Positions 16,039 through 62,232 of a DNA stretch of 64,000 nucleotides are shown piece after piece. Source of the DNA: Lentisphaera profundi (GTDB taxonomy: Bacteria > Verrucomicrobiota > Lentisphaeria > Lentisphaerales > Lentisphaeraceae); contig NZ_CP117811.1 in assembly GCF_028728065.1 (NCBI RefSeq), positions 1,922,001 to 1,986,000 on the forward strand, given 5' to 3'. The position numbers and the translations under genes were made by a program. How positions within the stretch are numbered: the first letter of the stretch is position 1; each line of letters starts with the position of its first letter. A model generated the notes under the pieces. It made no database searches. It was given only the letters and a program-made list of their open reading frames with translations, and was not told the origin of the DNA.

Positions 16039-16070
16039 GCACTAATTAGAAATTAAAATTACACAGTTAC

Positions 16071-16228
16071 CTGAATCAGTGAGCTACATTAAGTTAATCA
16101 TCTTGGTCTTTCACCTTCATTGACTTACAACTTTTTTCAAAAGACCTACGGGTATTCCTGCAAAAAGTTGTAAAGTTCTGAAAATAAAATCCCTCCGAGA
16201 TTATTCTAAAGCCAGTTCACGGATTCAG
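16071..16228. repeat. MITE-like element with terminal inverted repeats, copy 1
   Basis: A 158-base non-coding block bounded by ctgaatcagtgagct (16071-16085) and agttcacggattcag (16214-16228), which are inverted repeats matching at 13 of 15 positions. Inside, tacaacttttt (16126-16136) and aaaaagttgta (16162-16172) form a second perfect inverted repeat. A diverged copy in the opposite orientation occurs at 61923-62071. No ORF is inside, so it would be non-autonomous or a structured RNA or DNA element. Confidence 0.65.
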
Positions 16229-16295
16229 GACTTAGTAATTGGAAGTATCCACGATCTCGACTAAGCTTGAACAAATCACAAGTCAAAGGTATTGA

Positions 16296-60160: not shown

Positions 60161-60234
60161 CGGAGCGTAGCGCAGTCTGGTAGCGCGTTTGGTTTGGGTC
60201 CAAAAAGTCGCGAGTTCGAATCCCGCCGCTCCGA
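60161..60234 (+). tRNA. tRNA-Pro (anticodon TGG), copy 1
   Basis: 74 bases. The acceptor stem cggagcg/cgctccg pairs fully with discriminator A; the D arm is agcgcagtctggtagcgc; the anticodon stem tttgg/ccaaa encloses loop tttgggt with anticodon TGG; the T arm is cgagttcgaatcccg. CCA is not encoded. Confidence 0.95.
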
Positions 60235-60327
60235 CATTTTATTTCTTTACCAGGAAATAAACCCCTTGTTTTCCTCACGGAAAATGTTTTACAGATTAAG
60301 TCTGTTTTTAAGACTTGATTTTCACAT

Positions 60328-60401
60328 CGGAGCGTAGCGCAGTCTGGTAGCGCGTTTGGTTTGGGTCCAAAAAGTCGCGAGTTCGAATCCCGCCGCTCCG
60401 A
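60328..60401 (+). tRNA. tRNA-Pro (anticodon TGG), copy 2
   Basis: Identical in all 74 bases to the copy at 60161, but with different flanks, so the duplication does not extend beyond the gene. A T-rich stretch follows at once. Confidence 0.95.
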
Positions 60402-60435
60402 CTCTTTTTTAATTTTAACTATTAAATTAAATTTC

Positions 60436-61771: not shown

Positions 61772-61844
61772 GCCAGCATAGCTCAGTTGATAGAGCAGCT
61801 GACTTGTAATCAGCAGGTCGTCGGTTTGAGTCCGACTGCTGGCT
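61772..61844 (+). tRNA. tRNA-Thr (anticodon TGT), copy 1
   Basis: 73 bases. Acceptor gccagca/tgctggc with discriminator T; anticodon stem gctga/tcagc around loop cttgtaa with anticodon TGT; T arm gtcggtttgagtccgac. CCA is not encoded. Confidence 0.95.
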
Positions 61845-61848
61845 CTCT

Positions 61849-61879: not shown

Positions 61880-61922
61880 ATTCCCATCATCCCTAAGCCT
61901 AAATAGAAATACGCCCAAACCC

Positions 61923-62071
61923 CTGAACTAACTTTAGAAGATTTACGTAGACATCCTGCTCATGGAACTTTATAACTTTTCACAGCAATACTCGTACAAC
62001 TTTCGAAAAAAGTCATAAGTCAATGTGGACCAAAGATCAAGACAATTGATAAATGTAGCTCACGGATTCAG
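61923..62071. repeat. MITE-like element with terminal inverted repeats, copy 2
   Basis: Homologous to 16071-16228 read on the opposite strand. The right end agctcacggattcag (62057-62071) matches the TIR. The left TIR has lost about seven bases (ctgaa joined to ctaacttt). The inner arms tataactttt (61971-61980) and aaaagtcata (62008-62017) still pair with one mismatch and carry one C-G to T-A compensatory change against copy 1. Confidence 0.65.
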
Positions 62072-62155
62072 AACATCAATAAATGAATACTTTTGTGTAC
62101 TTATGCGCTTAATCTGACTGGCAGAAAAACAATTTCGGTTTATTATCTACCCGTC

Positions 62156-62228
62156 GCCAGCATAGCTCAGTTGATAGAGCAGCTGACTTGTAATCAGCAG
62201 GTCGTCGGTTTGAGTCCGACTGCTGGCT
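62156..62228 (+). tRNA. tRNA-Thr (anticodon TGT), copy 2
   Basis: Identical over 73 bases to the copy at 61772. Confidence 0.95.
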
Positions 62229-62232
62229 CTCT

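Follow-up and report, generated by a model that had tools for sequence, protein, structure and literature searches.

ISEcp1, the best-known member of the IS1380 family of insertion sequences (ISs), moves resistance genes by means of loosely matching ends. The left end of ISEcp1 reads CCTAGATTCTACGT (PMC7864471), and another member of the family, IS1247, is 1672 bp long and has 16/13 bp ends and 5 bp repeats (PMC3281130). Among miniature elements, MITEPye1 is a type I bacterial MITE that is linked to IS1182 and is present in 1-3 copies per chromosome (PMC11578231), and the TIMEs are non-autonomous miniature elements derived from Tn3 (PMC4133298). We found no IS1380-linked MITE in the open-access literature searched.

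We analyzed two blocks of similar sequence in a window, by which we mean the whole 64,000-nucleotide stretch of DNA under study, from the marine bacterium Lentisphaera profundi. Judged by all of the defining features that can be tested in sequence, the blocks appear to be copies of a gene-less type I MITE of 160 bp, with 16 bp terminal inverted repeats, CCTGAATCMGTGARCT, at both ends. The features of the window copies are as follows.

16070-16229, + strand: complete MITE copy (copy 1), 160 bp, young subfamily
16070-16085, + strand: left terminal inverted repeat, CCTGAATCAGTGAGCT, one difference from the IS1380-family left end CCTGAATCCGTGAGCTG
16214-16229, - strand: right terminal inverted repeat, CCTGAATCCGTGAACT read on the - strand; its inverted copy is AGTTCACGGATTCAGG
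16065-16069, no strand: left target-site duplication, AGTTA
16230-16234, no strand: right target-site duplication, ACTTA, with 4 of 5 bases the same as on the left
16121-16178, no strand: inner stem of the palindrome, TGACTTACAACTTTTT ... AAAAAGTTGTAAAGTTCTG
61922-62072 (approximate bounds), - strand: old, degraded MITE copy (copy 2) of the second subfamily, 151 bp, 73% identical to the consensus

A preliminary description of this DNA had reported two homologous blocks in inverted relation that carry terminal repeats; both the blocks and the repeats are real, and the bounds of the blocks are corrected to those given above. Copy 1 is 97.5% identical to the family consensus. Copy 2, on the opposite strand, aligns with copy 1 across 107 bp with 79% identity (E = 2e-18); approximately 9 bp of its end repeat at 61922 are gone, as are its outermost bases, and no target-site duplication remains around it.

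When the window's own genome (G000; 5.46 Mb in two contigs) was searched, 19 matches were obtained; 11 were essentially full length, and copy 2 was among the others. The further full-length copies were found at E = 4e-41 to 5e-76, and many fragments accompany the 11 full-length elements. When up to one mismatch was allowed, the end repeat occurred 45 times in the genome, versus 2 times for a reversed control pattern. Identical 5-mers flank 13 of the 21 copies with readable flanks (the chance expectation is approximately 0.003, or 0.3%, per copy), and these duplications amount to 65 bases, 64 of them A or T. Even a 79 bp copy from which the interior has been deleted (L015) has its own target duplication, TAATA. 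Most copies are intergenic, and most lack an ORF of 90 aa or more. Two copies that lie 6.6 kb apart (L132; G000:C1:1235248 and 1241846) have identical flanks and the same duplication, so segmental duplication, rather than transposition, gave rise to one of them.

Identity to the consensus is 90-99% for most copies and 73-83% for three (L010, L011, and copy 2), which constitute a supported older group. Copies 1 and 2 belong to different subfamilies and hence derive from separate waves, and the family as a whole appears to have spread in two bursts. One inner-stem pair changes from C-G to T-A, as the preliminary description had pointed out; the change is genuine, but it represents a single event common to exactly the three copies of the older group. 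Beyond the window's own genome, a 388-genome sample of the phylum yielded 13 MITE matches in a congener (G002), where approximately nine copies were counted, and 4 in Lentisphaera marina IMCC 11369 (G001), both of which are Lentisphaera; there were none in the remaining genomes of the sample. The L. marina MITEs are all decayed.

A 3.1 kb element with MITE ends in G002 was considered as a possible cargo-bearing MITE and rejected, because it is a MITE copy split by another element (L123; G002:C34:31500-35500). This insertion of approximately 2.95 kb has its own ends, GGTTCTTTCTCA, and an 8 bp duplication, TAAGTTAA, and its two transposase-like genes encode products of 481 and 385 aa, the second apparently of the ISL3 type.

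We compared the insertion sites of the window copies with the corresponding sites in the congeners. At the site of copy 1, conserved anchors are 160 bp apart in L. marina and 324 bp apart in the window, where the element plus its duplication predicts 165 bp; the L. marina intergenic sequence aligns poorly here, so this is a match in size and not a base-exact empty site. Copy 2 sits between two tandem tRNA-Thr genes, both of which are present in G002 without the element. Both insertion sites in the window thus appear to lack the element in a congener, which supports its mobility indirectly. The tRNA-Thr (TGT) genes (61772-61845 and 62156-62229) are near-identical and carry promoter-side and terminator sequences with them. 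G002 likewise has the tandem pair, and L. marina apparently has one copy at that place. Tandem tRNA-Pro (TGG) genes lie close by (60161-60235 and 60328-60402).

L. marina and G002 contain the pattern CCTGAATCMGTGA as inward-facing pairs, exactly 1655 bp apart and each around a transposase gene. PF13701 genes enclosed by pairs of CCTGAATCCGTGA ends number approximately 17 in L. marina, with 2 intact in G002, and the copy number of the 1655 bp IS is approximately 17 and two to four, respectively. The transposase (439 aa) scores 355.8 bits against the NCBIfam IS1380 model NF033539 (cut-off 180) and 89.6 bits against PF13701 (cut-off 34.7). The ends of the IS are 13 bp long, and 14 of 18 elements are flanked by identical, A+T-rich 5 bp duplications. 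The score above the curated transposase cut-off, a size close to the 1.65 kb usual for the family, the short ends, and duplications within the family's range of 4-5 bp together indicate that the element belongs to the IS1380 family. Its left end, CCTGAATCCGTGAGCTG, agrees with one MITE end at 17 of 17 bases and with the other at 16 of 16.

Intact copies of the IS occur in the other species, and the window's genome retains relics only. One of these (L052; G000:C1:1519568-1520464), which lies in a seemingly interrupted gene, comprises the C-terminal part of the transposase (70% identity; G000:C1:1519799-1520464) and an intact right end at C1:1519568, approximately 229 bp past the transposase stop codon, compared with approximately 233 bp in the intact IS. 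The second is a short N-terminal fragment of the transposase at C2:166339, with an adjoining end at C2:166246. Because the IS has decayed in the window's genome, the MITE family is probably immobile there now.

The preliminary description had proposed an undescribed non-autonomous MITE, and it had called for a search for more copies, for target-site duplications, and for a transposase gene bordered by terminal repeats that match. Further copies are present genome-wide and in relatives, target-site duplications flank many of them, and the IS1380-family element of the congeners provides the transposase with matching ends, all of which supports the proposal.

We consider it very probable that mobilisation of the MITE occurred in trans, through the transposase of the approximately 1655 bp IS1380-family IS, whose termini the MITE shares. 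We infer this movement from the terminal identity, the duplication length, the A+T-rich targets, the element-free sites in congeners, and the co-occurrence of the two elements in the genus. Once bound to the CCTGAATCCGTGA ends, the transposase would excise or copy the MITE and insert it at A+T-rich 5 bp targets, which would become duplicated in the process. The MITE interior has nothing in common with the IS beyond the terminal 16-17 bases, so an origin by simple internal deletion from the IS is unsupported, and the MITE may instead consist of two captured IS left ends flanking an unrelated palindrome or descend from a relative of the IS that has since been lost.

Against the IS as the driver stand the occurrence of its intact copies in other species than that of the window, the terminal identity of 13-17 bp as the sole sequence link between the two elements, and the age and rarity of the MITE in L. 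marina, where the IS is most abundant. A different transposase with similar ends, for example that of an IS1380-family member lost from all sequenced Lentisphaera, could have moved the MITE instead. This would agree with the unrelated interior and with the MITE ends, which run on to GAGCT on both sides and so fit the known IS at its left end only; further IS1380-type transposases are also present in the window's own genome (L050 and L051/L053). However, these genes were rejected as drivers because no matching end pair surrounds them, and the 1655 bp IS has both identical ends over 13-17 bp and a duplication of equal length, so that mobilisation by a different transposase seems improbable. Most likely, to judge from the sequences, the MITE was moved by the 1655 bp IS or by a close relative that later became extinct in this lineage.

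The entire element is a single imperfect palindrome, with a predicted fold of -67.7 kcal/mol (z = -8.6) on one strand and -53 kcal/mol (z = -7.9) on the other. It might therefore be a structured RNA or regulatory hairpin, in which case a 160 bp hairpin would be transcribed with its neighbours, its fold would be under selection, and its mobility would be incidental. The very stable fold favors this explanation, as do double-sided changes in 10 of 63 pairs among 17 copies (23 such cells, compared with 1-7 in slid controls and 8.2 in a shuffled control that ignores relatedness). Columns 31:132 and 45:118 show changes on more than one unrelated branch, and G-U mismatches outnumber A-C mismatches on one strand of the consensus by 8 to 3. 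The latter excess is not significant, however, and is too weak to be read as a sign of selection on RNA. Most of the paired changes separate subfamilies, and several of the double ones (49:115, 61:103, and 38:125) are seen solely in the subfamily of L010, L011, and copy 2. In addition, the fold is lost in old copies, with copy 2 reaching only -18.1 kcal/mol on that strand. Moreover, the elements lie in either orientation with respect to the genes beside them, both strands of an imperfect DNA palindrome would fold in any case, and an Rfam scan of the window returned only four tRNAs and no match to the MITE. We therefore regard a structured RNA as very unlikely. Of the two readings offered in the preliminary description, the MITE stands, and the structured RNA family is not needed, because a DNA-level palindrome accounts equally well for the hairpin and the covariation.

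The palindrome has tended to be kept, which is compatible with either the DNA or the RNA level. That its interior, in which paired changes occur across two subfamilies, is functional, as an RNA hairpin modulating neighbouring transcripts or as a DNA hairpin aiding IS1380-driven transposition, is a possibility to which we give little credence. A terminator or promoter role for the window copy was rejected, because there is no terminator-like site at this copy and promoter-like sites are at chance level. Finally, chance similarity between two A+T-rich intergenic hairpins can be dismissed as vanishingly improbable, given the E values of the full-length copies and the excess of end-repeat matches over the control: there are many other copies, and they align better than shuffled sequence does.

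The MITE family is apparently undescribed, and it is of a kind already known (type I). Together with the IS it provides the IS1380 family with a pair of IS and MITE, apparently the first such mobile-element pair described for Lentisphaera within the open-access literature searched. The species differ in stage: L. marina has an active-looking IS and few decayed MITEs, G002 has both elements, and the window's genome has young MITEs and a dead IS.

Comparison with ISs of the IS1380 family shows that the termini of ISEcp1 and of the Lentisphaera element start alike (CCTAGATTCTACGT and CCTGAATCCGTGA, respectively) and that both are associated with 5 bp duplications. IS1247 (1672 bp, with 16/13 bp ends) similarly resembles the Lentisphaera IS (1655 bp, with 13 bp ends), and both have 5 bp repeats. 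In contrast to these ISs, the MITE lacks a transposase gene, and it has only its terminal 16-17 bp in common with the Lentisphaera IS. The TIMEs are likewise non-autonomous and generate A+T-rich 5 bp duplications, but they have Tn3-type ends of approximately 40 bp and depend on an unrelated transposase. The nearest published parallel appears to be MITEPye1, the case for which was argued on the same grounds. Both elements are small, non-coding, and intergenic, and both have IS-like terminal inverted repeats, direct repeats, and a long hairpin; the Lentisphaera MITE differs in that its link is to IS1380 and not to IS1182, in that 11 full-length copies are present rather than 1-3 per chromosome, and in that its host belongs to the Lentisphaerota.
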